This document shows positions 5,322 to 32,052 of a stretch of DNA of 33,026 nucleotides, piece by piece. The DNA comes from Acidobacteriota bacterium (GTDB lineage: Bacteria > Acidobacteriota > JAAYUB01): the NCBI GenBank assembly GCA_012517875.1, contig JAAYUB010000161.1, positions 1 through 33,026 of the forward strand, written 5' to 3'. The translations under genes were made by a program, and so were the position numbers. The first letter of the stretch is position 1. Every line of letters starts with the position of its first letter. Below the pieces are notes generated by a model. It did not search any database and was not told the origin of the DNA. It was given only the letters and a program-made list of their open reading frames with translations.

Positions 5322-7077
5322 AGTTCTGGTCTCCAAGGCTTTTCTCCAAAAAATGGATGTACCGCAACGGCACGCTGGCTCCCTGGGTGCGGGAGCCGCT
5401 GAAGATGTCGAGCCAGGACGCCGGCAGGGCCGGGAACGAGTGGCCGCGGGAGAAGATCCCGTCGCCCTTCCGGTACAGCTTGACGTAGACGGTGGCGTTC
5501 TGGCGCAAGTTCCGGAGCGCCCCCACGAGCTGCCGGGCCGTGGACACGGTGAACAGGCCTGGCTCCAGCTGGCGGTCCAGCTGGGTCAGCGTCGCCCCGT
5601 CACCGACGAACACCTGCACCGGGCCGGCAGGCAGGTCCGCCGGCAGGTGCAGCGGGAAGCCCATGGCGGTCATCCGCCCGTCCTGCTGTTGGAGGTTGAT
5701 TTTCAGGTTGACGGTTTCGCCCGCCCGGACCTCCGCCCGATCCACCTGCACCGAATCGATCCGGGCAGCGCTCAGCTCGTCGCGGATGACGGCCTTGACG
5801 CGGACACCAGCCACGTCGAGATCCTTGTACCCGGAGCTGAAGATGTACTGCAGCGGCACCGCCACGAACAGCGCCGCCTGCTGGGCCGCGGTGAGCGGGC
5901 TCGAAATGACGTTGCGGATCGGAATCGTCTCGCCGCCGGTCAGGGTGATCTCCGCGGTGATGTCGATGGTGGCGGCGCCGATGGCCCGCTCTTCGGCCTG
6001 CAAGAAATTGAACAGGGCGTAGTTGACCAGGAACGGCGTCAGGAACGGGTCGCGCACCACCTCGATCGCAAACGCCGCGGGCGGCTTGCGCGGCGTCTCG
6101 ACGGTGACCGCGACCGGGATCAAGTCCGGCCGGGCACCGAGCCGACCCATGACCCCGAGGAGGCGGTCTTGGAGCACGGCGCCCACCGGCTGGCCGGTGG
6201 TGAAGAATTTGAACGAGTTGTTCAGGTTGCGGACGACGGCGAGAATCTCGGAATCGTGCAGCGGCATGGCGGTCCGCCCCGCCTGCAGGAACGGATGGCC
6301 GAAGGCATACACGGTCTCGCCGTCCACCTCGGTCACGGTGCCGCCGGCGCCCATGCCGATGTCGCCCCGCACCAGGGTGACCACGGCCCCCGCCCCGGGC
6401 GCCAGGGGCGGGGATCCCGCCGCGGCGCCGCCGGTGGCGCCGGCGGAGGCACCGCCCAGCACCGGCACGAAACCGAGGTCGCGGAAGACGTCCCGAAACT
6501 GCTCCAGCACCGCCGGCGTGCAGCCGGACAGCATGAGCGGCGTCCCGATGGGCCGCAGCGCGGCCGCCTCACCGCCGCCGAGGGGCGGCGGCAGCGCCAA
6601 CGCCGTGCGCATGTCCGGACTGGCCATGCGATCCAGCATCGTCCCCACATCCAGGACGCCGCCCGGACCTCCGGCGGCGACCGGGCCCGGCTCGGTGCCG
6701 AACAGCGCCCGCATCTGCTCGAACGGCGTGACGCCGGCGACCGGGTCGGTGGTGTACGGGAACGAGTACGCCAGCGCCCCCATGAGCTTGCCGTCGATGT
6801 AAACCGGCGAGCCGCTCATGCCGGAGAACGGGCCCGTCCGCTCGATCTCGGCGCCGCTCAGCCGGATGAGCACCACGTCGTAGCCGGAGATCGACTTCTC
6901 CAGCACCCCCAGCACCTCCGCCGGGAATTCCACGACCTGGCGGCCCTCGAGACAGGTGCGGACGGTGGCGCTCTGGCCCCGTTTGACCTGGGCCAGGGGA
7001 TACACCTCCGCCGCGGCGGCCGGACCGGCCAAGGCGGCGATCGTTGCGATGGCGAACCAGACGCGCAGCTTGTTCAT
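5272..7077 (-). CDS. Exported serine peptidase with SpoIVB-type S55 domain
   Basis: The 601-residue product has a clear signal peptide (residues 1-23, ending AAAAE) followed by an S55-like domain. The serine motif GMSGSPVYIDG lies at about 86-96, the hallmark seen in SpoIVB-type peptidases, and is followed by GALAYSFP. A second conserved-looking stretch, VYAFGHPFLQAG, lies further on. Many related proteins occur in non-sporulating bacteria, so a sporulation role should not be assumed. The C-terminal half contains a beta-rich region around KAVIRDELSAARIDSV. The start is ATG at 7077 with a GGAAAGGA ribosome-binding site. It follows ispF by 50 bp and overlaps the downstream propeller gene by 50 bp, indicating an operon and possible translational coupling. 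Assignment of the catalytic histidine and aspartate is uncertain. Confidence 0.82.
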   Translation of the reverse strand: MNKLRVWFAIATIAALAGPAAAAEVYPLAQVKRGQSATVRTCLEGRQVVEFPAEVLGVLEKSISGYDVVLIRLSGAEIERTGPFSGMSGSPVYIDGKLMGALAYSFPYTTDPVAGVTPFEQMRALFGTEPGPVAAGGPGGVLDVGTMLDRMASPDMRTALALPPPLGGGEAAALRPIGTPLMLSGCTPAVLEQFRDVFRDLGFVPVLGGASAGATGGAAAGSPPLAPGAGAVVTLVRGDIGMGAGGTVTEVDGETVYAFGHPFLQAGRTAMPLHDSEILAVVRNLNNSFKFFTTGQPVGAVLQDRLLGVMGRLGARPDLIPVAVTVETPRKPPAAFAIEVVRDPFLTPFLVNYALFNFLQAEERAIGAATIDITAEITLTGGETIPIRNVISSPLTAAQQAALFVAVPLQYIFSSGYKDLDVAGVRVKAVIRDELSAARIDSVQVDRAEVRAGETVNLKINLQQQDGRMTAMGFPLHLPADLPAGPVQVFVGDGATLTQLDRQLEPGLFTVSTARQLVGALRNLRQNATVYVKLYRKGDGIFSRGHSFPALPASWLDIFSGSRTQGASVPLRYIHFLEKSLGDQNYVITGAQNFQLDIRPE

Positions 7078-7127
7078 CGTGTTCCTTTCCGGATTGTTCC
7101 CCGGGATGCCCCGCCGGCGGCGTCCCG

Positions 7128-16747: not shown

Positions 16748-16867
16748 GCGGCAGTCCGAGCGGGCGGTTAGACCTTTTGTCGACTGGCCGCATCCAATTC
16801 AGCGCGGCGGCACCAGCCGCCGCCAATCCGTACCGGCCCGGGGCCGGACGCACAATGTGAGGTGGGT

Positions 16868-17563
16868 ATGTTCGGAATCGATCCCCTGTACTGGATGCTC
16901 ATGCTCCCCGTGATGCTGCTGTCGTTCTTCGCCAGCTTCCGGGTCAAGAGCGCTTTCAAGAAATATTCGCAGGTCCGGACAGCCTTCGGGATCACCGGCG
17001 CCCAGGCTGCCCGTCAGATCCTGGACCGCAACGGTCTGGGTCACGTCGAGGTGGTGGAGACCCACGGCTTCCTTTCGGACCACTACGATCCGACGAAGAA
17101 GGTGGTCCGGCTCTCGCCCGAGGTGTACCGCAGCCCGTCGCTGGCCTCCGTCGGCATCGCCGCCCACGAAACCGGCCACGCCGTGCAGCATGCCAAGTCG
17201 TACGCGCCCCTCATGCTTCGGAACATGATGGTCCCCGTCGCCTCGATCGGCTCCAACTTCGCCTGGATCGCCATCATGGCGGGATTCGTCATCGGCCTGA
17301 TGGGCCTGGTCAAGATCGGCATCCTGCTCTTCAGCGCCGTGGTGGTCTTCCAGCTCCTGACCCTGCCGGTGGAGTTCAACGCGTCCGCCAAGGCCAAGGA
17401 GATGCTCACCGGCTACGGGCTGGTCTCTACCGGCGAGCTGGCGGGCGTGAACAAGGTGCTCTCCGCGGCGGCCATGACCTACGTCGCGGCGGCCGCATCA
17501 GCCATCGTGACGCTGCTCTACTTCCTCCTGCGGGCCGGCCTCATCGGCGGCCGCGATGACTAG
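16868..17563 (+). CDS. Membrane zinc metallopeptidase, YugP type
   Basis: The 231-residue product starts with a membrane segment (residues 5-24) and carries the zinc motif HETGH in IAAHETGHAVQHAKSYAP. Two or three further hydrophobic segments follow, with LPVEFNASAKA between them, where the Glu is the likely third zinc ligand. This is the pattern of the neutral zinc metallopeptidase family that includes YugP. Substrates of the family are not well established. The start is ATG at 16868 with GAGGTGG immediately upstream. Its stop is 90 bp before the ATPase-transglutaminase gene on the same strand, with no terminator between, so the three genes to 21,554 may be one transcript. Confidence 0.9.
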   Translation: MFGIDPLYWMLMLPVMLLSFFASFRVKSAFKKYSQVRTAFGITGAQAARQILDRNGLGHVEVVETHGFLSDHYDPTKKVVRLSPEVYRSPSLASVGIAAHETGHAVQHAKSYAPLMLRNMMVPVASIGSNFAWIAIMAGFVIGLMGLVKIGILLFSAVVVFQLLTLPVEFNASAKAKEMLTGYGLVSTGELAGVNKVLSAAAMTYVAAAASAIVTLLYFLLRAGLIGGRDD

Positions 17564-17652: not shown

Positions 17653-20409
17653 ATGCCTGTTGAAGCGGCCGACGCCGGCGCCTTCTTCGAGCGGGCCCGC
17701 CTCGAGGCGGAGCGTTATGGCGAGGACGGCTGGGTCTTCCTGCGGGAGCTCGTGCAGAACGCCCGCGACGCCCGCGCCACCCGGATCGACTTCGAGACCG
17801 TCGCCGCCGGCGGTGACGAGCAACTCATTTGCCGGGACAACGGCGCCGGCATGTCGCCCGACGACGTGGACCGCTTCCTGCTCCGTCTGTACGCCTCCAG
17901 CAAGGAGGAGGCCCGGGACACGGTGGGCTTCTTCGGCGTCGGCTTCTGGTCGGTGCTGCTGTTCGAGCCGCGCGAGATCCGTGTCGTCACGCGCAACGGC
18001 GGGACGGTGTCAGCGTTCACCATCGATTGCATCGGCCGCCGGATCCGGCCGCTGCCGCCGCCGGCTGACCCGGTGCCGGGCACGATCATCACCCTGGTCC
18101 GGCCCGCGCCGGACGGAGCTGCCCCCGACGCGCTCGCTGTAACCGTCCGCGAGCAGCTCGACCGCTACGCCGGCTACGTCCGACCTCTACCGGGGATCCG
18201 GACCCTGGAACTGTTCTGCAACGGCGCCAGCGTCAACCGCGGCTTCGCGCTGCCCCACCGCCTGGGCCGCCGCTTCCGCACCCGCCGCTTCGACGGCGTG
18301 CTGGGCTTCGGCCCGGCGCCGTCGGTGCGGATCTACAAGGGCGGCATCCTGGTGCGCGAGACGGCGGGGCTCGACGAGGTGATTCCCTCCCGCCCCGTCC
18401 GCCTGCCCCGTTCCGGCTGGGGCTTGTTCCCCGTGGTAGCCATCAACATCGACGGGCTGCGCCTGCTGATGGACCGCCATACCATCTGCGAGGACCCGCT
18501 GCTCCACGAGGCGGTGCGCTACTGCGAGCGGGAGCTGCTGCGGATCCATCGGCGGCTGCTGAGCCGGCTGTTCCCGCTGGACTGGCGCAATGCCATGGCC
18601 AGCCTCTGGGCGCGCGGACGGACCCGCCTCGCGGGCGTCGCCGCCGGATTGGCGCTGGCGGTGGTCGCATTCGCCGCGCTGGTGTGGGCGGCGCCGCACC
18701 TCGCCCCCGGGCTGCCCGCTTGGGGCGGCGGCGATCTGCCGGGCCTACCGTCCACAGGCGGAGCGCCGCCGGCGGTGATGCGCACGGTGGACACGCTGTT
18801 TGCGAACTGGGGCGGCACCCGGACCGACCGCTCCGCCGACACTGGCCACCGCTGGGACTTCGAGTACCGCGGCCCCGACGGCCTGTTGTTCCAGGCGGGC
18901 GCGCTGGAGCGCTACGATCCGCGGCGTGGACCGGCGCCCGGCCCATTGCGGCTCGCCGGCCCTTATCCCGCCTTTGCCGACGACGCATCAGCGGGCCCGC
19001 CGGTGGCGGTCCGCCTCGGCGTGTCGGGGGGCGTCCCCCGCTTCGTCCTCCCGCTGCCGCCCGGTTACGTGCTGATTCCAGAAACACTCCGACTGGATGG
19101 CGCGCCCGTCGCGCCGGCGGGGCGGGACGCCTTCGGCGCGCCGGTCGTCGTGTTAACGCAAAGGGGTCATCTGGAATACCGCGCCCGGCCCGGCGCGGTT
19201 CCGTCCGCCGCACCCGATGAGCCGGAGCGGCCGGTCATCGACTGGCCGCCGGACGCCGCCGAAGCCTTGCAGCAGGTCGAAGGGCTGAATCCCGGAGACC
19301 GCGTGGAGCGCCTGGCCGCCTGGACGGCCGGCCGCCTGCGCTACTCCCGCGACCCGGCAACCGCCGCCGACCTGGCGGGCGGAACCGGCGAGTGGCTGGG
19401 GCGGGCGCTCCGCACCGGCGCCGGCGATTGCGACGTAATCAACGGCGCGCTCGTGCTGATGCTCCAGGGCGCCGGCGTGCCCGCCCATCTCCACGTGGGG
19501 CTGGTGGGCGAAGGGGGGGCGGCCCGGTCCGAGCTCCACGCCTGGGCCGCCTACTGGCACGACGGTTGGCGCACGCTGGACCTGACCCGACCCGACCCGT
19601 CCGCCCTGGGCGCCCCGCCGCCGCTGTGGGCCCCGGCGGTCGCGGCCCGGCCGCCGGCGACGGCCGCCGAGGCGGTGACGAAGCCATCACTCCCATTTCA
19701 GTTTTATCTCCTCGTCGGCGCGGCCGCCCTGGCTGCGGTCGGCCTGCTGGGCGCGCTCTGGCGTCGGCTGATCCGGCCGCGGCTGGACGAACCGCAGTTC
19801 GTCCGAGACATCTTCGAGCATTACTTCGCCTTCGGCTCCGGCCGCGACCCGCTGCGGCTGCGCTGCCGGCCGGTGCTGCCGACGCTCGGCGGGCGCCGTC
19901 TCAGCCTGCACCAGGCCCAGCGGCTGGCGGACCGGGGCCGGCTGCTGGGCGCCCGGCCGGGCTGCCCGCTGCTGCCGGGGCTGAACCGGCGCCGCGACAC
20001 GCTGGACCACGCGGCTCCGGTGGTCGAGCTGCTGGAGCCATACCTGCCTCCCGTGACCTGGCTCGAGGATGTGGCGGGGATCCTGGCGGCTCCGCCGCTG
20101 CCGCCGGTGCTGCGGGAGGCGGAGGCGCTCATCCGCCGGCGGGACCCGTTGTTCCGGCTGCACCTTCTGCCCGGCTCGACGGACTTCCGCGAGGTGTACC
20201 TCCCGTTTCGCGCCGCGGCAGCCGGCCGCCGCCACGTGGTGGTGGGCGACCAGCATCCGGTCGGCGCCGCGATGCTCGGAGACGGCGCGGCCGGAAACGG
20301 CGATGGCGCCCGGCGCGCCGCGGCGCGGGTGCTGGCCAGAACCACGTTCTACCTGGGCGAGGCGGCCCCCGAGGTCGCTGCCGGCCTTCCGGACAGGAGC
20401 GGGCGATGA
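17653..20409 (+). CDS. GHKL/Hsp90-like ATPase - membrane - transglutaminase-like fusion protein
   Basis: The 918-residue product combines domains rarely joined. Residues 1-130 form a GHKL ATP-binding domain: FLRELVQNARDA with Asn36 (N box), CRDNGAGMSPDD at 60-71 (G1) and VGFFGVGFWS at 91-100 (G2). Residues 130-320 continue with an Hsp90-middle-like region. A membrane segment lies at about 326-347. Residues 350-680 hold a transglutaminase-like domain with Cys593 (AGDCDVINGALVL), His629 (ELHAW) and Asp643 (WRTLDLTRP). A second membrane segment lies at about 683-703, followed by a basic C-terminal region of about 215 residues without a recognised domain. Two segments predict ATPase and tail inside the cell and the transglutaminase domain outside. 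The enzyme may be a peptidase, amidase or cross-linker. The ribosome-binding site is weak. The stop overlaps the next start (ATGA). Confidence 0.85.
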   Translation: MPVEAADAGAFFERARLEAERYGEDGWVFLRELVQNARDARATRIDFETVAAGGDEQLICRDNGAGMSPDDVDRFLLRLYASSKEEARDTVGFFGVGFWSVLLFEPREIRVVTRNGGTVSAFTIDCIGRRIRPLPPPADPVPGTIITLVRPAPDGAAPDALAVTVREQLDRYAGYVRPLPGIRTLELFCNGASVNRGFALPHRLGRRFRTRRFDGVLGFGPAPSVRIYKGGILVRETAGLDEVIPSRPVRLPRSGWGLFPVVAINIDGLRLLMDRHTICEDPLLHEAVRYCERELLRIHRRLLSRLFPLDWRNAMASLWARGRTRLAGVAAGLALAVVAFAALVWAAPHLAPGLPAWGGGDLPGLPSTGGAPPAVMRTVDTLFANWGGTRTDRSADTGHRWDFEYRGPDGLLFQAGALERYDPRRGPAPGPLRLAGPYPAFADDASAGPPVAVRLGVSGGVPRFVLPLPPGYVLIPETLRLDGAPVAPAGRDAFGAPVVVLTQRGHLEYRARPGAVPSAAPDEPERPVIDWPPDAAEALQQVEGLNPGDRVERLAAWTAGRLRYSRDPATAADLAGGTGEWLGRALRTGAGDCDVINGALVLMLQGAGVPAHLHVGLVGEGGAARSELHAWAAYWHDGWRTLDLTRPDPSALGAPPPLWAPAVAARPPATAAEAVTKPSLPFQFYLLVGAAALAAVGLLGALWRRLIRPRLDEPQFVRDIFEHYFAFGSGRDPLRLRCRPVLPTLGGRRLSLHQAQRLADRGRLLGARPGCPLLPGLNRRRDTLDHAAPVVELLEPYLPPVTWLEDVAGILAAPPLPPVLREAEALIRRRDPLFRLHLLPGSTDFREVYLPFRAAAAGRRHVVVGDQHPVGAAMLGDGAAGNGDGARRAAARVLARTTFYLGEAAPEVAAGLPDRSGR

Positions 20410-21554
20410 ACGGGAATCACCTGCAGCTGTCCATCGATCTGGAAGCCGAACTCCGCAAGATCACGCGGGAGCAGCACCTCAACCAGGTGCATTACCTGGT
20501 GCAGCTCGTGCGACACGCCCTGACGCACCGGCCGCGGACCATCGCCATCGCGAGCACCCGCCGCCGCCTGGAACTGGCGCAGGACGGCGACGCCTTCGAC
20601 GACGGCGAGTGGCAGATCCTGAAACTGCTGTTGCTCCGGCGCGACGCGCCGCCGGATCTGGTGCAGGCGGCGCTGTCCCGCCTCGAGGAGTGTCACGGCG
20701 TCGCCGTGCTGTCGCTCTTCCACCTGTTTTCCGCCGTCGAGGTGGCCACGGCCGGCAAGCGCCTCGCACTGACCGACGGCGCGGTGCACCTCCACACAGG
20801 CCGGCGGTATCTGGACGGCTACCGCATCCGGCTGGCTCGCGACCAGCGGGATCTCGGCGCCGAGCGGCGCGAGCTGGAGTTCTTCTGCGCCGGCGCCGCC
20901 GCCGAGATCCGCTACAACGGCCGGCGCATCAACCGGCCGGTGAAGCTGGATGACGCCCTCCTGAAGGTGCCGTTCGCCTTTGACTTCGGACTGGGCGCCG
21001 TGGGCATCCCGGCGGCAGGGGACATGAGCCGCTTCACCTACTACAAGTGCGGCGTCCGCTTCGGGTACAAGCGGATCGCCGCCGCCGACGGCCGCCTCGT
21101 GGCCGGCGTCTGGGACGACGCCCGGCCCGGCTTCGAGCCGTACTTCGCCCGCTCCATCCGCACAGGCGAGTTCTGCTTGCGGGCGCACGGCGAGCTCCCG
21201 TACCGCGCCGCCGCCGCCCGCTTCGGCGAGCTGGACGACGCGCACCGCCGCCGCGTCAAGCAGGTGCTCTTCACCCTGCCCGCCGACGGGTGGCCGGTCC
21301 GGTACGGCGCCTTGCCCCTGTTCCACTCGGTGCGGCGGGAATTCGCCTTGAGCCTGCGGGACCTGGACGCGCTGCGCGAGCGGTACGAGGCGGTGCCGTT
21401 CGTGTCGGCGCCTGACCGGACACTGCCCGACGCCATCCCCTGCCTCTCCAGCGAGGACGTCCACTTCCTCCGCGCCCGCCTGGGCCGGCCCCTCAAATCG
21501 TGCCTGCGGCGGCCCCGCGGCCGCATCGCCCGGTTCTTCGGACGATGCGGATAA
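20406..21554 (+). CDS. Degenerate GHKL-like (pseudo-ATPase) partner protein
   Basis: The 382-residue product starts at ATG 20406, overlapping the stop of the ATPase-transglutaminase gene by four bases, so translation is likely coupled. It has no signal peptide or membrane segment. By eye its first 130 residues align with the ATPase domain of its neighbour: LVQLVRHALTHRPRTI matches LRELVQNARDARATRI with His37 in place of the N-box Asn; LELAQDGDAFDDGE matches LICRDNGAGMSPDD; HGVAVLSLFHLFSAVEV matches VGFFGVGFWSVLLFEPREI without the glycines. It therefore looks like an ATPase fold that has lost ATP binding. Residues 130-382 are unrecognised, with a basic, Arg-rich end. It may dimerise with the neighbour's ATPase domain as a regulatory subunit. 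The alignment is by inspection only. Confidence 0.6.
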   Translation: MNGNHLQLSIDLEAELRKITREQHLNQVHYLVQLVRHALTHRPRTIAIASTRRRLELAQDGDAFDDGEWQILKLLLLRRDAPPDLVQAALSRLEECHGVAVLSLFHLFSAVEVATAGKRLALTDGAVHLHTGRRYLDGYRIRLARDQRDLGAERRELEFFCAGAAAEIRYNGRRINRPVKLDDALLKVPFAFDFGLGAVGIPAAGDMSRFTYYKCGVRFGYKRIAAADGRLVAGVWDDARPGFEPYFARSIRTGEFCLRAHGELPYRAAAARFGELDDAHRRRVKQVLFTLPADGWPVRYGALPLFHSVRREFALSLRDLDALRERYEAVPFVSAPDRTLPDAIPCLSSEDVHFLRARLGRPLKSCLRRPRGRIARFFGRCG

Positions 21555-21604: not shown

Positions 21605-21660
21605 AAGCGTTCGGTCCTCCGGGACCGGCGGCGTTGACAATTCCAAACACGGAGAACGAC

Positions 21661-23298
21661 ATGATGCGCATCACCCGGACAGTCCTGCTCGCGGCGGCCT
21701 GCCTGACGCTGGCGCTCACGCCCGCTCTGGCCTGCACCAACTTCATCGTCACCAAGGGAGCCTCGGCCGACGGCTCCGTCATGATCACCTACTCGGCGGA
21801 TTCGCACACCCTGTACGGCCAGCTCAACTTCATCCCCGGCGGCCGCCACATCGAGGGGTCGCTCATCGACATCATCGACGACGACTCGCAGAAGTACGTC
21901 GGCAAGATCCGGCAGGTGGCCGAGACGTTCACCGTGGTGGGGCTCATGAACGAGCATCAGGTGGCCATCGGCGAGACCACCTACGGCGGCCGCGAGGAGC
22001 TGGTGGACCCGAAGGGGGGCATCGACTACACCAGCCTGATGACCGTGGCGCTGCAGCGCGCCCGCACCGCCCGCGAGGCCGTTCAAATCATGGGCGAGCT
22101 GGTGGCGGAGTACGGCTACTTCAGCTCCGGCGAGACGTTTTCCATCAGCGATCCCCAGGAAGCCTGGATCATGGACATGATCGGTAAGGGGAAGGAGAAC
22201 AAGGGCGCCGTCTGGGTGGCGCTCCGCGTGCCCGACGGCTATGTCTGCGCCCACGCCAACCAGGCGCGCATCCGGCAGTTTCCCCTCAACGACCCGGCGA
22301 ACTGCCTCTACGCACCGGATGTCATCTCCTTCGCTCGGGAGAAGGGCTATTTCAAAGGGGAGGACAAGGACTTCAGCTTCGCCGACACGTACGCGCCGCT
22401 CGACTTCGGCGCCCTGCGTGCCTGCGAGGCGCGGGTATGGAGCTTCTTCCGCCGCGTGGCGCCGTCGCTGAACCTGCCCATCGACTACGTCAAGGGCATC
22501 CCGGGCGCCACCCCCCTACCCCTCTGGATCAAGCCCGACCGGAAGCTCTCCGTCCGCGACCTGATGGAGCTGATGCGCGACCACTTCGAGGGGACTGAAT
22601 TCGACCTGTCGCTGGGCGTGGGCGCCGGCCCGTACAAGCTCCCCTACCGCTGGCGCCCCATGACCTTCGAGGTGGACGGCGTCAAGTACGTCAACGAGCG
22701 CGCGGTGGCCACCCAGCAGACCGGGTTCTCCTTCGTCGCGCAGTCCCGGTCCTGGCTTCCCGGCCCCATCGGCGGCATCTTCTGGTTCGGCGTGGACGAC
22801 ACCGCCAGCACGGTCTATACGCCGATGTATTGCGGCCTGCGCGCCGTGCCGACGAGTTTCGCGGCGGGCACCGGCGACTTCAACGCGTTCTCCTGGGACT
22901 CCGCGTTCTGGGTGTTCAACTTCGTCTCGAACTACACCTATTCCCGGTACTGCGACATGATCCGGGACGTCCAGGCTGTCCAGCGCGAGCTGGAGGGCGC
23001 TTTCATCGCCCAGGTGCCCGAAGTGGACAAGGCCGCGCTGGCGCTCCACCAGCAGTCGCCCGAGCTGGCCCGCGAGTACCTGACCCGGTACTCCGTGGAC
23101 CAGGGCGAGATGGTGGTGCGGCGCTGGCGAAAGCTGGGCGAGTTCCTCATCTGGAAGTACCTGGACGGCAACGTCCGCGACTCTCAGGGCAACGTCACCC
23201 ATCCCGGCTACCCAGCCGACTGGTACTGCCGCATCGCCGAGGAACGGGGCGAAGTGCTCAAGGTGCGGCCCCTGCCGGGCGAGAAGTCCTCGCACTGA
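21661..23298 (+). CDS. Exported C69-family dipeptidase (PepD-like Ntn hydrolase)
   Basis: The 545-residue product has a signal peptide (residues 1-24, ending PALA) followed directly by Cys25 in CTNFIVTKGASADGSVMITYSAD. This is the C69 signature, in which an N-terminal Cys is the nucleophile. Signal cleavage after Ala24 would expose the catalytic Cys with no further propeptide. Other family-like stretches are VVGLMNEHQVAIGETT, SFSISDPQEAWIMDMIG, PDGYVCAHANQARI and the late segment WFGVDDTASTVYTPMYCG. Family members hydrolyse dipeptides; here it would act in the periplasm. The start is ATG at 21661 with GGAG seven bases upstream; a second ATG follows at once. It is followed by a hairpin and a good terminator. 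Confidence 0.92.
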   Translation: MMRITRTVLLAAACLTLALTPALACTNFIVTKGASADGSVMITYSADSHTLYGQLNFIPGGRHIEGSLIDIIDDDSQKYVGKIRQVAETFTVVGLMNEHQVAIGETTYGGREELVDPKGGIDYTSLMTVALQRARTAREAVQIMGELVAEYGYFSSGETFSISDPQEAWIMDMIGKGKENKGAVWVALRVPDGYVCAHANQARIRQFPLNDPANCLYAPDVISFAREKGYFKGEDKDFSFADTYAPLDFGALRACEARVWSFFRRVAPSLNLPIDYVKGIPGATPLPLWIKPDRKLSVRDLMELMRDHFEGTEFDLSLGVGAGPYKLPYRWRPMTFEVDGVKYVNERAVATQQTGFSFVAQSRSWLPGPIGGIFWFGVDDTASTVYTPMYCGLRAVPTSFAAGTGDFNAFSWDSAFWVFNFVSNYTYSRYCDMIRDVQAVQRELEGAFIAQVPEVDKAALALHQQSPELAREYLTRYSVDQGEMVVRRWRKLGEFLIWKYLDGNVRDSQGNVTHPGYPADWYCRIAEERGEVLKVRPLPGEKSSH

Positions 23299-25030: not shown

Positions 25031-25549
25031 TCACTTCAGCACATCGAGATACTCGCGGTAGCGCAACCGGATCCGGATATAGTCGTCGTGGGACAGAAAC
25101 AACCCGGTGGCGATGATCCGCAGCTCCGCCTCCTCCTTGGCGCAAATGGACCCGTTGGCGGCGGCGACGGCGAACAGCGTGTCGAGGATCTCCAGCTTGA
25201 GCGGCGCCTCGGCCGCCGCGTTGACCAGCCGGGTGTAGTACACGTTCTCGGAGCCGAAGTAGCGGTCGGCGTCCTGGTCCACCAGGGTCATGATGCGGCT
25301 CACGCGGTCTGCGTCCAGCGTGGTGCGCCGCCGGAGGATCTCCCGAATCTTCTCCCGCTCGGAGTCCTCGAGCTTCATGTCGCTGTACGCCACCCGCCAC
25401 AACAGGCCGGCGAAGCCGGCGATGAGCTTCACCTCGGACTCCGGCAGGTCCGCCAGGCACCCTTCCAGGCGGCCGAACAGGCTGCCCCACTCGTAATCGC
25501 CGCGGACGCTCCGCTTCGCCTCGAGACCCATGATCTTGAGAAAGTTCAT
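25031..25549 (-). CDS. TerB-like (tellurite-resistance/DjlA-type) domain protein
   Basis: The 172-residue soluble helical protein contains LIAGFAGLLWRVAYSDMKLEDSEREKI at about 42-68, which matches the first TerB helical hairpin with its acidic cluster (YSDxKLxxSE). A second, similar motif is LDTLFAVAAANGSICAKEEAEL near residue 125. TerB-like domains are proposed metal-binding or membrane-stress modules; the true role is not established, and no other ter genes are here. The start at ATG 25549 overlaps the methyltransferase stop by four bases, so it is the last gene of a coupled three-gene unit. Its 3' end borders the repeat cluster. Confidence 0.8.
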   Translation of the reverse strand: MNFLKIMGLEAKRSVRGDYEWGSLFGRLEGCLADLPESEVKLIAGFAGLLWRVAYSDMKLEDSEREKIREILRRRTTLDADRVSRIMTLVDQDADRYFGSENVYYTRLVNAAAEAPLKLEILDTLFAVAAANGSICAKEEAELRIIATGLFLSHDDYIRIRLRYREYLDVLK

Positions 25550-26594: not shown

Positions 26595-29500
26595 TCAGAA
26601 CTTCTGCCGCGGGTACGGCGGATGTTTCGGCCAGGTCCGGGGCTCCGCTTCGATTTTCTTCAGAAGCACTTCGACGCCCTTCATGAGCTGGGCGTCGTAG
26701 CCGCGGGCCATCTCGGCGGGATCCAGGTCCACTTCGATGTCGGGGGTCACGCCGACGTTTTCCACCACCCAGTTGCCGTCGCGGTCGTAGATCCGGTAGT
26801 CGGGGGCCGTCAGGTAGCCGCCGTCCACCAGGTCGATGGTCATGGAAATGCCCACCAGTCCGCCCCAACTCCGGGTGCCGATGACGGGCCCCATCTTTTC
26901 CACCTGGAACTCATGGGGCAGCTCGTCGCCGCCCGAACCGGCCTGCCGGTTGGTCAGGCACACGAGGTGGGCCTGGGTCCAGACCGCCGGGGTCGCCGTG
27001 TCTTTGGAGTAGCGGCGGGTCCAGTAGGAGATCGCCCGCTTGCCCAGCCGCTGCAGGAAGATGTCCGGATCGAGGCCGCCGCCGTTGAAGCGTCCGTCGA
27101 CGACAATCCCGTCCTTCTGGGTCTGGGCGTAGAAGTACTTGGGGAATTCGCGCGCCGAAGCGGTGTAGGTGTCGGGCAGATGCAGGTAGCCGATCCGGCC
27201 GCCCGAGGCCTCCGCCACGACCCGGCGGTTGTGCTTCACCCAGTCGAGGTAGCGCAAGGTCCGCTCCGAGGCCAGCGGCTTGACGGTGTACTCGCGGGCG
27301 CCGACCCGGTCCGGTTTGTCATTGACCAGGATCTTCACCTGCTTGCCGGCCAGGTCCTGGAAGTACGCGTACACCTCGCGGTCGCCGCGGACATCCACGC
27401 CGTTGACGGCCAGGAGATAGTCGCCTTCGCGCACGCCGACGCCCACCGCGGCCAGGGGCGGCTGCACCTCGTCGGTCCAGTCGGGCACGCGGCAGATCTT
27501 CCGAAAACGGTAGCGCTGGCTCGCCGCGTCCAGCTCGTAGTCGGCCCCGAGCAGGCCCACCGCGATCTCTTCGGCCTTGCGCTGCTGGGCGCCGCCGCCC
27601 ACGTAGGTGTGCGACGCGTTGAGCTCGCCGATGAGCTCGCCGAGGATGTACACCACGTCCTGGCGGCAGGTGGCCCGCTCCAGGAGCATCCGATAGCGCG
27701 CGTGCATGGCGGGCCAGTCGAGCCCGTGCATGCCCGGCTCGTAGAAGAAGTCGCGCTCCATCCGCCACGACTCGTTGAAGATCTGCCGCCATTCGGCCCG
27801 CGGGTCGATCCAAAGCTTCAGGTCGGCCAGGGACAGCTCCTGCGCCTTCGGTTCCGGCCCCTTGAGCTCCAGCGCGGTCAGCCCGGTCCCCTTCCGGCAG
27901 ACGATCCACTTGCCGTCGCCGGAGAGCCGGTAATCGTCCACCCCCTCGAGCAGGCGATGCTCCTTGCGGGTGTCAAACGCGAAGGCATACAGGCTGCGGG
28001 CCTCGGGACCGCGGTACTCGAACCGGTTGAAGTCGCCGGCGGCGGCGTTGAGGTAGTAGAGCGCGCCCTCGCCGACGGTCAGCTGGCGGTAGTTACCTCG
28101 CGGCAGCGGAACGGCCTCGATCCGCTCGGCCAGGCCGTCGAAATCGATGACGACGCTGGGCGGAACCGCGGCGGCGGCTGGCGGTGCAGTCGGCGGCGCG
28201 GCCGGCGCGCCGGTCTCCTCGTCGCTCGCAAGCGGAAAGCGCGCCGCGCCGTCGCGGCTGAGTGTCAGGCAGTAGATCCCGGCCGCCTGCTTGTAGACCA
28301 TCTCCCACTCGAAGTCGCAGAAGGTGGGATCGAACCGGCGGTTGGAGATGAAGAACAGGTGCTTCCCATCGCGAGAGAACACCGGGCCGAAATCGTTGAA
28401 CAGACCGTTGCTGACGCAGCGGGAGCGTTTCTCCTGGAGCGAGTAAACGAACACCTTCGACACGAGGTCGGCTTCCATCTTGGAGTAGGCGAGATACGCG
28501 CTGTCGGGCGACCAGGCGTAGTCGGAGATGGGCTTGACGTTCAGCGACACGTCCATGGGCTCGTAGTCGGCCTTGTCGACGCGGGTCACGGCGCCGCTCG
28601 CCACGTCGAGGACATAGCAGGCCAGCGTCTGGTCGGCGAAGGCGATTTTCTTTCCGTCGGGCGACCAGCGCAGCGTGTGCCGATAGCCGTCCTTCGCGCG
28701 GGTCAGCTGGACCGGGTCGGCGCCGCCGCCGACTGCCGCCAGGTAGATGTTGTATTCGCCGCCGGCGTCGGAGATGTAGGCAATCTGCCGGCCGTCGGGC
28801 GACCAGACCCCCTCGCGGATCCGGGCGCCGCTGGCGCCGGCTACCAGCCGCGTGGCGCCGTCCTTGCGCGGCAGGCTGAAGAGGTGGCCGCGGGCGGTGG
28901 CGAGCACCCGGGCGCCGGACGGAGACACGTCGAAGTGGGTGAGCCGGTCGGCCACTCCGGCCAGGTACGGCCGGGTTTCCGGCGCATCGGCGCGCACGGC
29001 GATGGGGAGGGCGCGGGACTGGCGGCTGGCCAGATCCAGCAGCCAGACGGTCCCGCCCACCTCGTAGGCGATCCGGCCGTCGCCGAGGCTCGGCCGGCGG
29101 ACGTCGTGCTCCCGGTGGCGGGTGAGCTGCTCCGTCTTTCCCGTGGCGACGTTGTAGCCGTAAATGTTCAGCACGCCGTCGCTGTCGGCGGTGTAGTAGA
29201 TGGTGCCGCCGTGCCACATGGGCATCCGGTCGCCGCCGGGAAAGTCAGTGATCTTCCGGTCCTGCTTCGAGGCGAAATCGTAGATGTAGACGTCCGGAGC
29301 CAGCCCGCCGCGGTACCGCTTCCAGGTGCGCGTCTCGACGCTGATGCGGTTGTAGGCGATCTGCCGGCCGTCGGGCGAATAGCTGCCATAGGCCGCCTCA
29401 TGCAGGGGGAGCGGCTCCAGGCCTGTACCGTCGGGTGACACCAGGAACAGCTTCTCGAAACGGTTGAAGCTGTCCCGCATCGACTTGAACAGGATCTTGT

Positions 29501-29888
29501 CGGCCGTGGGATGCCAGCCCACCACCTCGTCGTCGCCCGGGTGCCAGGTGACCCGGGTGATCCCGCCGCCGTGCACGTCCATCACATAGACATCGGCATT
29601 GCCGTCGTAGTCGCCGGTGAAGGCGATCCGTGTCCCGTCGGGCGAGAGCTTGGGGTGGCGCTCCTCGCCGTCGTGAATGGTCAGGCGGGTGGCGGTGCCG
29701 CCCGCGACCGGCGCGGACCAGATGTCCTCGCCGCAGACGAACACGACGGTGTCGCCGCGCACGTCGGGGAAGCGCAGCAGCGGTTCGGCCGGGACCGCCG
29801 CCCAGAGGGCGGCCGTAAGGCCGAGTAGCAACCCGGCGCACAGGCTGCACCGGACGCTGGGGGCAGAACAGGTGGGGCGGTGGCTCAT
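26595..29888 (-). CDS. Exported tricorn-like S41 protease
   Basis: The 1,097-residue product has a signal peptide (about residues 12-33, LCAGLLLGLTAALWAAVPA). Two N-terminal beta-propeller regions follow, with TolB-type repeats such as LSPDGTRIAFTGDYDG and WSPDGRQIAYISDAGG, then a helical C1-like region (EWRQIFNESWRMERDFFYEP, about 700-760). A PDZ domain lies at about 796-865 (GVREGDYLLAVNGVDV), and a C-terminal S41 domain has Ser985 in QAGSGGDELP as the likely nucleophile. This is the tricorn protease layout. Archaeal tricorn is cytosolic, while signal-bearing bacterial homologues are periplasmic. An alanine/proline-rich insert of about 20 residues lies near residue 560. The start is ATG at 29888 with AGGAG upstream, about 50 bases after the promoter. 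Confidence 0.93.
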   Translation of the reverse strand: MSHRPTCSAPSVRCSLCAGLLLGLTAALWAAVPAEPLLRFPDVRGDTVVFVCGEDIWSAPVAGGTATRLTIHDGEERHPKLSPDGTRIAFTGDYDGNADVYVMDVHGGGITRVTWHPGDDEVVGWHPTADKILFKSMRDSFNRFEKLFLVSPDGTGLEPLPLHEAAYGSYSPDGRQIAYNRISVETRTWKRYRGGLAPDVYIYDFASKQDRKITDFPGGDRMPMWHGGTIYYTADSDGVLNIYGYNVATGKTEQLTRHREHDVRRPSLGDGRIAYEVGGTVWLLDLASRQSRALPIAVRADAPETRPYLAGVADRLTHFDVSPSGARVLATARGHLFSLPRKDGATRLVAGASGARIREGVWSPDGRQIAYISDAGGEYNIYLAAVGGGADPVQLTRAKDGYRHTLRWSPDGKKIAFADQTLACYVLDVASGAVTRVDKADYEPMDVSLNVKPISDYAWSPDSAYLAYSKMEADLVSKVFVYSLQEKRSRCVSNGLFNDFGPVFSRDGKHLFFISNRRFDPTFCDFEWEMVYKQAAGIYCLTLSRDGAARFPLASDEETGAPAAPPTAPPAAAAVPPSVVIDFDGLAERIEAVPLPRGNYRQLTVGEGALYYLNAAAGDFNRFEYRGPEARSLYAFAFDTRKEHRLLEGVDDYRLSGDGKWIVCRKGTGLTALELKGPEPKAQELSLADLKLWIDPRAEWRQIFNESWRMERDFFYEPGMHGLDWPAMHARYRMLLERATCRQDVVYILGELIGELNASHTYVGGGAQQRKAEEIAVGLLGADYELDAASQRYRFRKICRVPDWTDEVQPPLAAVGVGVREGDYLLAVNGVDVRGDREVYAYFQDLAGKQVKILVNDKPDRVGAREYTVKPLASERTLRYLDWVKHNRRVVAEASGGRIGYLHLPDTYTASAREFPKYFYAQTQKDGIVVDGRFNGGGLDPDIFLQRLGKRAISYWTRRYSKDTATPAVWTQAHLVCLTNRQAGSGGDELPHEFQVEKMGPVIGTRSWGGLVGISMTIDLVDGGYLTAPDYRIYDRDGNWVVENVGVTPDIEVDLDPAEMARGYDAQLMKGVEVLLKKIEAEPRTWPKHPPYPRQKF

Positions 29889-30039: not shown

Positions 30040-32052
30040 ATGACCGACAACACCGCCATCGGCGCCGCCATGACCGTCCGCCTGCGCGGCAAGCTGCCGC
30101 CGCCGGCCGCGTTCGAGCCGGGCATCCGCCGCGCGCCGGACCGTGGTTACACCTTGAACCGGACCGAGACCCTCCTCGCGCTGAAGAACGCGCTCCGCTA
30201 CGTGCCGCCCCAGTGGCACGCGGCGCTGGCCCCGGAGTTCCTCGACGAGCTGAGGACGCGCGGCCGGATCTACGGCTACCGTTTCCGGCCCCCGGGCCGG
30301 ATCTGGGGGCGGCCCATCGACACGTACAAGGGCCGCTGCGTCGAGGGGAAGGCTTTCCAGGTGATGATCGACAACAATTTGGATTTCGACGTGGCGCTTT
30401 ACCCGTACGAGCTGGTGACCTACGGCGAGACCGGCCAGGTCTGCCAGAACTGGATGCAGTACCGGCTCATCCAGCGATACCTGGAGGTGCTCACCCGGAA
30501 GCAGACGCTGGTGGTCGAGTCGGGACACCCGCTCGGGCTCTTCGCCTCGCGGCCCGAGGCGCCCCGGGTCATCATCACCAACTCGCTCATGGTGGGCATG
30601 TTCGACAACCAGGCCGAGTGGCACCGGGCCATGCAGCTCGGCGTGGCCAACTACGGCCAGATGACCGCCGGCGGCTGGATGTACATCGGCCCGCAGGGGA
30701 TCGTGCACGGCACGTTCAACACCATCCTGAACGCCGCCCGGCTCCGGCTGGGGATCCGCGCCGACGAGGACCTGCGCGGGCACCTGTTCGTCTCGTCGGG
30801 CCTCGGCGGCATGAGCGGGGCCCAGCCCAAGGCGGTGGAGATCGCCGGCGGCGTCGGTGTCATCGCCGAGGTGGACCCGTCGCGCATCCGCACCCGCCAC
30901 GAGCAGGGCTGGGTGTCGGCGGTGAGTGCCGATCTGAGCGAGGTGTTCCGCCTGGCCCAGGCGGCGATGGCCCGCCGTGAGCCGCTCTCCATTGCCTACC
31001 ACGGCAACATCGTGGACCTGCTCCAGTACGCGGTGGACCACCGGATTCCCATCGAGCTGCTGTCGGACCAGACCTCCTGCCACGCCCCGTACGATGGCGG
31101 CTACTGTCCCCAGGGGCTGACTTTCGAGGCGCGCACCCGGATGCTATCGACAGACCGCGCCGCCTTCCGCGCCGCCGTGGACCGGAGCCTGCGGCGCCAC
31201 TTCGAACTCGTCCGCACCCTGGTGGAGCGGGGCACCTACTTCTTCGACTACGGCAACTCCTTCATGCGGGCGGTCTACGACGCCGGCGTGACGGAGATCT
31301 GCCGGAACGGCACCGATCCCCGCGAGGGCTTCATCTTCCCCTCCTACGTCGAGGACATCATGGGGCCCATGCTGTTCGACTACGGCTACGGGCCCTTCCG
31401 CTGGGTGTGCCTCAGCGGGCGGCCCGAAGACCTGGCCGCAACCGACCGGGCGGCCATGGCGGCCATCGATCCGAACCGGCGCGGGCAGGACCGCGACAAC
31501 TGGGTCTGGATCCGCGACGCCGAAAAGAACCGGCTGGTGGTGGGCACCCAGGCCCGCATCCTGTACCAGGACGCGCCCGGCCGCGCCCGGATCGCGCTGA
31601 AGTTCAACGCGATGGTACGCGCCGGCGAAATCGGGCCGGTGATGCTGGGCCGCGACCACCACGACTGCGGCGGCACCGACTCGCCTTACCGCGAGACGGC
31701 CAACATCAAGGACGGCAGCAACATCATGGCCGAGATGGCCGTGCAGTGCTTCGCCGGCAACGCCGCCCGCGGCATGAGCCTGGTGGCGCTCCACAACGGC
31801 GGCGGCGTCGGGATCGGCAAGGCCGTCAACGGCGGCTTCGGGCTGGTGCTGGACGGCAGCGCGCGGGTCGACGCAGTGATCCGCTCGGCCATGCCGTGGG
31901 ACGTGATGGGCGGCGTGGCCCGCCGCGCCTGGGCACGCTGCCCCAACTCCATCGACACCTGCGTGGCCTACAACCAGGGGGCGCCGGGCAACCATGTGAC
32001 CCTGCCCTTTCTCGCCGACGACGCGATGCTGGAGCGGCTGGTGGACGCCTGA
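30040..32052 (+). CDS. hutU: Urocanate hydratase (long form)
   Basis: Urocanase converts urocanate to imidazolone propionate in histidine degradation, using tightly bound NAD+ in the cytoplasm. The 670-residue product is longer than the common bacterial form of about 555 residues and is close to the longer type known from animals and some bacteria. Recognisable stretches include FQVMIDNNLDFDVA, MTAGGWMYIGPQGIVHGT, the NAD-binding SSGLGGMSGAQPKA (about 253-266), LLSDQTSCHAPYDGGY, YGPFRWVCLSGRPED and GRDHHDCGGTDSPYRET. The start is ATG at 30040 with GGGAGGA seven bases upstream. No other hut gene (hutH, hutI, ftcD) lies within the window, so the pathway must be completed elsewhere or from the unseen right side. 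Confidence 0.96.
   Translation: MTDNTAIGAAMTVRLRGKLPPPAAFEPGIRRAPDRGYTLNRTETLLALKNALRYVPPQWHAALAPEFLDELRTRGRIYGYRFRPPGRIWGRPIDTYKGRCVEGKAFQVMIDNNLDFDVALYPYELVTYGETGQVCQNWMQYRLIQRYLEVLTRKQTLVVESGHPLGLFASRPEAPRVIITNSLMVGMFDNQAEWHRAMQLGVANYGQMTAGGWMYIGPQGIVHGTFNTILNAARLRLGIRADEDLRGHLFVSSGLGGMSGAQPKAVEIAGGVGVIAEVDPSRIRTRHEQGWVSAVSADLSEVFRLAQAAMARREPLSIAYHGNIVDLLQYAVDHRIPIELLSDQTSCHAPYDGGYCPQGLTFEARTRMLSTDRAAFRAAVDRSLRRHFELVRTLVERGTYFFDYGNSFMRAVYDAGVTEICRNGTDPREGFIFPSYVEDIMGPMLFDYGYGPFRWVCLSGRPEDLAATDRAAMAAIDPNRRGQDRDNWVWIRDAEKNRLVVGTQARILYQDAPGRARIALKFNAMVRAGEIGPVMLGRDHHDCGGTDSPYRETANIKDGSNIMAEMAVQCFAGNAARGMSLVALHNGGGVGIGKAVNGGFGLVLDGSARVDAVIRSAMPWDVMGGVARRAWARCPNSIDTCVAYNQGAPGNHVTLPFLADDAMLERLVDA

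Follow-up and report, generated by a model that had tools for sequence, protein, structure and literature searches.

How can a single bacterial polypeptide carry an ATPase on one side of the membrane and a transglutaminase-like (TG-like) enzyme on the other, and what could one do for the other? This question is raised by one gene of the window, i.e., the whole stretch of 33,026 nucleotides that we analysed from an Acidobacteriota bacterium (contig JAAYUB010000161.1). The periplasm is devoid of ATP, and HtpG, TRAP1, and Hsp90, members of one of the best-studied chaperone families, are soluble homodimers. The protein described here, P0001, very probably has another architecture, that of a membrane-spanning Hsp90 with an extracytoplasmic TG-like domain. 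Its gene is laid out as follows:

17653..20409, + strand: main gene, P0001, 918 aa, Hsp90-family ATPase (favoured assignment) interrupted by a membrane segment, a TG-like domain, and a second membrane segment
17653..18192, + strand: GHKL/Hsp90 N-terminal ATPase domain, aa 1-180 (Pfam, invariant columns, HtpG profile, fold)
17746-17748, 17758-17760, 17836-17853, and 17926-17946, + strand: ATPase motif sites Glu32, Asn36, DNGAGM, and GFFGVGF, respectively
18193..18588, + strand: first part of the Hsp90 middle domain, aa 181-312 (hhalign to PRK14083-type Hsp90 and HtpG)
18475-18477, + strand: invariant Arg275, aligned with the arginine of the Hsp90 "LNvSRE" motif
18628..18684, + strand: predicted membrane segment 1, aa 326-344 (hydropathy, AF2)
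18775..19632, + strand: predicted extracytoplasmic part, aa 375-660, a beta-rich domain followed by the TG-like domain (AF2, alignment, TgpA match)
19285..19581, + strand: TG-like core (Transglut_core), aa 545-643 (Pfam, TgpA match)
19429-19431, 19537-19539, and 19579-19581, + strand: TG triad sites Cys593, His629, and Asp643, respectively
19702..19758, + strand: predicted membrane segment 2, aa 684-702, followed by WRRLIRPR (hydropathy, AF2)
19759..20406, + strand: predicted cytoplasmic C-terminal part, aa 703-918 (hhalign to HtpG and to the partner described below, reversed-sequence controls)

The open reading frame starts with ATG and its GC content by codon position (0.79/0.56/0.89) is coding-like; this composition, together with homologues sharing invariant motifs, rules out a frame or shadow-ORF artefact. 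Pfam recognizes two domains separately, HATPase_c_3 (7e-12, residues 30-125) and Transglut_core (1e-9, residues 545-643), both over their curated cut-offs, and NCBIfam covers the N-terminal ATPase stretch only. Profile searches thus bear out the two domains proposed by the first-pass annotation, and the residues on which that proposal was built, Asn36, DNGAGM (62-67), GFFGVGF (92-98), and the Cys593-His629-Asp643 triad, are in place, with the catalytic ones invariant in intact homologues.

Searches of genomes and related loci returned about 45 homologous loci with the same domain order in several phyla. The carriers are Acidobacteriota (including Aminicenantes and Vicinamibacteria), Myxococcota, and others titled Deltaproteobacteria, as well as Fermentibacterota, Eisenbacteria, and two uncultured proteobacteria; wherever the full fusion could be assigned to a named carrier, the genome is metagenome-assembled, and the match at two cultured Luteimicrobium loci is confined to the GHKL stretch. 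Both Pfam domains are present in all of the 35 homologues that we aligned. On the ATPase side, the columns invariant among the 35 include Tyr22, Phe29, Arg31, Glu32, Gln35, Asn36, Arg38, Asp39, Asp62, Gly64, Gly66, Ser82, Lys84, Gly92, Gly95, Gly97, and Arg275; on the TG side, the triad is invariant in 35/35. As overall identity among these proteins falls to 21%, this invariance indicates strong selection on each of the two active sites. In a maximum-likelihood tree, the main protein forms a family that is old and divergent and clusters broadly by lineage; the window copy groups with one acidobacterial and one fermentibacterial copy. Among the same-genus copies, one (L003) is partly masked with N, and a TGA found in another (L002) was not retained as a disruption, as it lies within the last residues. 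One further copy (L047), on a contig titled "Chrysiogenales", is nearly identical to an Aminicenantes copy (L046) and has the same neighbours, and may for this reason be a mis-binned contig.

Which GHKL family does the ATPase belong to? The first-pass annotation had spoken of an "Hsp90/MORC type", and it is the first of these two names that the evidence favours. Used as a profile against the PDB, the N-terminal 312 residues retrieve HtpG first (1.5e-11), followed by other Hsp90s and MORC2, and the top Foldseek matches of the predicted structure are TRAP1/Hsp90 (E 2e-12). With hhalign, the same profile aligns with HtpG over about 250 columns (prob 99.4-99.5, E 3e-23 to 5e-21) and with PRK14083-type Hsp90 over 260 columns (E 6.5e-15). 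The catalytic Glu32, Asn36, Asp62, Gly64/66, and glycine-lid Gly92/95/97 of an Hsp90-type N-domain are all invariant. In yeast Hsp90, the middle-domain arginine contacting the gamma-phosphate is R380; in P0001, the invariant Arg275 aligns by hhalign with its equivalent, the arginine of LNvSRE. This arginine acts as a sensor of the ATP gamma-phosphate and corresponds to R417 in zebrafish TRAP1 (PMC5550277). P0001 also passes the cut-off of the NCBIfam model P_loop_sacsin (53.6 vs 50 bits), which is consistent with a placement in the Hsp90/sacsin branch. MutL or MORC as the closest GHKL relative was considered and rejected: MutL does come first by single-sequence phmmer, but Hsp90 does so by family profile and by structure. 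As for canonical HtpG (PF00183), there is no match in the draft assemblies of the window genome and two genus mates, and three other genomes (G003, G037, and G082) have it besides the fusion.

The TG domain lies between two hydrophobic segments, as the first-pass annotation had it. These segments, at about residues 326-344 and 684-702 of P0001, border the TG region and its triad on both sides in 35/35 homologues (lowest 17-residue hydropathy 1.9 and 1.75); apparently missing peaks in one homologue (L030) turned out to be an effect of the length over which hydropathy was averaged. We then applied the positive-inside rule to the 35 aligned homologues. Lys and Arg are more abundant before than after the first segment (mean 4.5 vs 2.2; higher in 31/35, lower in 1) and after than before the second one (mean 5.1 vs 2.4; higher in 29/35, lower in 2), and the combined score favours a topology with the N-terminus inside and the TG domain outside in 34 homologues, with one tie and none opposed. 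This charge bias supports an N-terminus in, TG out, C-terminus in arrangement, which agrees with the earlier placement of the two domains on opposite sides of the membrane. The AF2 model of full-length P0001 has a mean pLDDT of 81.9 and predicts a continuous helix (311-350) running from the middle domain into the first membrane segment; the relative placement of the domains in it is not reliable, since the pTM of the whole model is 0.57.

The C-terminal 215 residues or so had been left unassigned. They can be assigned with some caution, as they match the C-terminal half of Hsp90, weakly yet well above reversed controls. By hhalign, the region following the second membrane segment aligns colinearly with HtpG, beginning with the stretch that follows the NvSRE helix and ending at the NPxHPxI tail, with E 8e-5 (score 42) against whole HtpG and E 2.7e-5 (score 41, prob only 74) against its C-terminal half, when reversed sequences score 15-16 and the TG profile against HtpG scores 15. 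The same region matches the C-terminal half of the partner protein (E 1.3e-5 and 1e-6). These C-terminal matches are weak to modest (prob 45-91 overall, 45-74 for those to Hsp90), and a single PRK14083 Hsp90 sequence, as opposed to the HtpG profile, gave nothing; echA6, the only PDB sequence match of the C-terminus (E 0.002), was judged to be due to chance. An uninterrupted Hsp90 N-M-C chain is not found in P0001, as the insert made of the two membrane segments and the TG region sits between about residues 312 and 738. Because the C-terminal match is colinear and begins where Hsp90 would continue, we take P0001 to be a single Hsp90 chain whose middle domain is broken by the insert.

The part predicted to lie outside the membrane has a single credible relative in the PDB, TgpA of P. 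aeruginosa (PA2873, PDB 6g49; 3e-5); the match covers the TG core and brings Cys, His, and Asp into register. In vitro, the periplasmic domain of this protein displays transglutaminase activity (PMC3507681). A TG-fold triad by itself would be compatible with cross-linking, deamidation, or amide or peptide hydrolysis, and its strict invariance suggests that the domain is catalytic and does more than bind. TgpA, like P0001, holds a membrane-anchored periplasmic TG domain, and in its MoxR-DUF58-TgpA operon a cytoplasmic ATPase is encoded with the TG protein. The resemblance has its limits: TgpA carries a multi-TM TgpA_N domain (about six membrane segments vs two in P0001) and its ATPase is a separate MoxR AAA+ protein, whereas that of P0001 is Hsp90-like and belongs to the same chain as the TG domain. 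Pfam finds no TgpA_N in P0001, and there is no MoxR or DUF58 among the neighbours of its gene. Moreover, a separate MoxR-DUF58-TgpA operon is present in this genome (G000:C111, L107:2044-6607), so that P0001 is not its TgpA. A more general role as a functional replacement of TgpA was also rejected, as TgpA is found in 7 of the 16 genomes that carry the gene pair described below; it is present in 60/119 genomes in the phylum. Weaker matches of the full-family profile in other genomes concern the TG part only; two, at G371:C12 and G043:C8, fall on TgpA_N genes.

The main gene does not stand alone. It overlaps a second gene that the first-pass annotation had missed, the start of which lies inside the stop codon of the first (ATGA at 20406-20409):

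20406..21554, + strand: partner gene, 382 aa, putative soluble, uninterrupted pseudo-Hsp90 without the ATP-site Asn

Whether the neighbours are conserved along with the fusion thus receives a double answer: the partner is, the other neighbours differ by lineage. The window partner (382 aa vs about 500 aa in most relatives) has no match in Pfam or NCBIfam; an alignment of the partner family, however, is homologous to the N-domain and middle domain of the main protein (hhalign E 7e-13) and matches HtpG (E 3e-8 and 8e-7), and the predicted structure (pLDDT 89.7) matches TRAP1/Hsp90 at 1e-12. The equivalents of Asn36, the ATP-site residue, and of Asp39 are both lost in all 34 partners examined, the Asp of DxGxG is missing in 16 of them, and none has a convincing membrane segment. 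Judging by these residues, the partner is probably an ATPase-dead paralogue of the GHKL/Hsp90-like type. It adjoins the main gene in 42 of the 43 loci with room for it (at least 480 nt downstream of the main gene), the sole exception being L036 (3559-5157), where 1.6 kb of downstream sequence holds no detectable partner. Of 396 genomes in the phylum, 16 carry the main gene and the same 16 a full-length partner, neither being found alone. One partner (G327:C96:29901-31397) has a single in-frame TAG, perhaps the mark of a broken copy or of an error in the assembly.

How do these genes relate to systems already described? Hsp90-family proteins (HtpG, TRAP1, PRK14083-type) share with P0001 the GHKL motifs, the gamma-phosphate Arg, and probably a colinear C-terminal half, which matches weakly; they differ in that the chain of P0001 is broken in the middle domain by the two membrane segments and the TG region, and in that its gene is paired with that of an ATPase-dead paralogue. 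Sacsin, MORC, paraMORC, and MutL have an N-terminal GHKL domain too, but neither Pfam nor NCBIfam finds any other sacsin, MORC, or MutL domain in P0001, and to our knowledge none of these proteins sits in a membrane with an enzyme on its outer side. The nearest analogue for control of a periplasmic TG-fold enzyme from inside the cell would be LapD-LapG, in which a cytoplasmic signal controls a periplasmic TG-like protease across the membrane (PMC4359373); there, the c-di-GMP receptor (LapD) and the protease (LapG) are separate proteins, whereas P0001 joins ATPase and enzyme in one chain. We found no description of such a fusion in a literature made of open-access full texts, with few subscription papers or preprints. 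The parts are known, but their arrangement and the pairing with a pseudo-Hsp90 appear not to have been known before.

Domain identity, active-site invariance, charge-bias topology, and near-universal gene pairing are all supported at the sequence level; an ATP-driven coupling to the outer enzyme is what we infer from the architecture alone. We favour, with modest confidence, a membrane-spanning Hsp90 whose clamp, regulated by the pseudo-ATPase partner, drives or gates the extracytoplasmic TG enzyme. The cytoplasmic N-domain and early middle domain would be joined by a helix to the first membrane segment, beyond which the chain would form the extracytoplasmic beta domain and the TgpA-like enzyme before returning through the second segment, and the late middle domain and C-terminal domain would complete the Hsp90 chain in the cytoplasm. 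ATP binding and hydrolysis would close and open an Hsp90-like clamp, made of either a homodimer of the main protein or a heterodimer with its pseudo-partner. The middle-domain hinge, where both membrane helices would leave and re-enter, could pass this movement through the membrane, and the movement transmitted would open, position, or cycle the TG enzyme, which would act on a protein or peptide of the envelope. The partner would set the cycle as an activator, a brake, or a client adaptor, by making the clamp asymmetric or by tuning it. That an active Hsp90 split by an outward enzyme and an ATPase-dead Hsp90 subunit together form an asymmetric clamp driving extracytoplasmic chemistry is a possible reading, which we hold only tentatively; we know of no other heteromeric bacterial Hsp90, and this would be the first. 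If this last reading is true, cytoplasmic ATP would power or gate an envelope enzyme in a manner not known before. More broadly, a conserved Hsp90 of the favoured kind, which spans the membrane with its enzyme outside and has a pseudo-Hsp90 as partner, would be one answer to how periplasmic enzymes are energised or gated. It would also couple the Hsp90 cycle to a defined enzymatic readout across the membrane, so that the asymmetry of Hsp90 and the contribution of an ATPase-dead protomer could be tested directly.

The fusion may also do no more than tether or co-localise the ATPase and the TG enzyme. The protein would then be a membrane chaperone handling clients inside, with the partner as a co-chaperone, and the TG domain would independently trim or cross-link envelope proteins. 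The Hsp90 relationship fits such a role, as do the envelope-related genes (SLT, SPFH/Band_7 pair, LiaF-like, YugP) located upstream in some lineages; these neighbours are not conserved, however, the domain order is kept across phyla without a split version in 396 genomes, and the insert lies inside the Hsp90 chain and not at its end. We consider this explanation unlikely on the whole, the last two points being those that make us favour mechanical coupling over tethering. The signal could conversely travel from the outside in, the TG-like domain binding a peptidoglycan peptide or a protein and controlling a cytoplasmic Hsp90-like dimer and its partner on a cytoplasmic target. Two membrane segments with an outer domain between cytoplasmic modules do resemble a sensor, of which the soluble partner would be the output module; such a sensor is nevertheless improbable given the invariant TG triad, which speaks for catalysis. 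We deem it very improbable that the pair is a conflict or defence module, in which an envelope-damaging TG effector would be restrained by the Hsp90-like proteins: its distribution is patchy (16/396 genomes), and GHKL ATPases and TG-like peptidases do both occur in predicted conflict systems (PMC3710099, PMC8195603), but the PADLOC matches (TmtA, MzaB, and a restriction enzyme model) reflect the shared GHKL stretch only (about 90 aa), and no defence-island neighbours were recognised at the loci examined. Finally, an ordinary member of the MoxR-DUF58-TgpA type that merely carries a GHKL domain is hardly credible: the TG part is closest to TgpA, but TgpA_N, the additional membrane segments, and MoxR/DUF58 neighbours are absent, and the genome has its own TgpA operon.

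Returning to the mechanism that we favour, envelope-directed and ATP-driven, the genes surrounding the pair give it a setting but name no single pathway or substrate, even if those upstream have an envelope flavour in some lineages. Two of them flank the pair in the window:

16862..17563, + strand: upstream gene, YugP-type zinc metallopeptidase (Zn_peptidase_2, E 4e-88)
21634-23298, + strand: C69-family dipeptidase, directly downstream of the partner

The YugP-type gene is syntenic within the genus (L020 and L003) but not in the next genus (L021), and likely represents the context of the pair. In L020, an ORF of equal length occupies the position of the C69-family dipeptidase. A conserved operon extending beyond the gene pair was rejected as a general feature, since it is seen only in Aminicenantes relatives and neighbours differ between lineages. 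There, the main gene is directly preceded by a secreted-looking metallo-beta-lactamase-fold gene, and the partner is followed by DUF3014 (in L046, for example, the flanking genes are at 1177-1905 and 6323-7108). Elsewhere, the upstream gene encodes an SLT lytic transglycosylase (two loci), an SPFH/Band_7 pair, or a LiaF-like protein; others are ABC1 kinase-like, EF-Tu-like, or an isochorismatase or methyltransferase. The rest of the window includes ordinary-looking neighbours, namely a TerB family protein (25034-25549, − strand), a Tricorn-like S41 protease with a PD40 propeller (26598-29831, − strand), and a urocanase (30040-32049, + strand).
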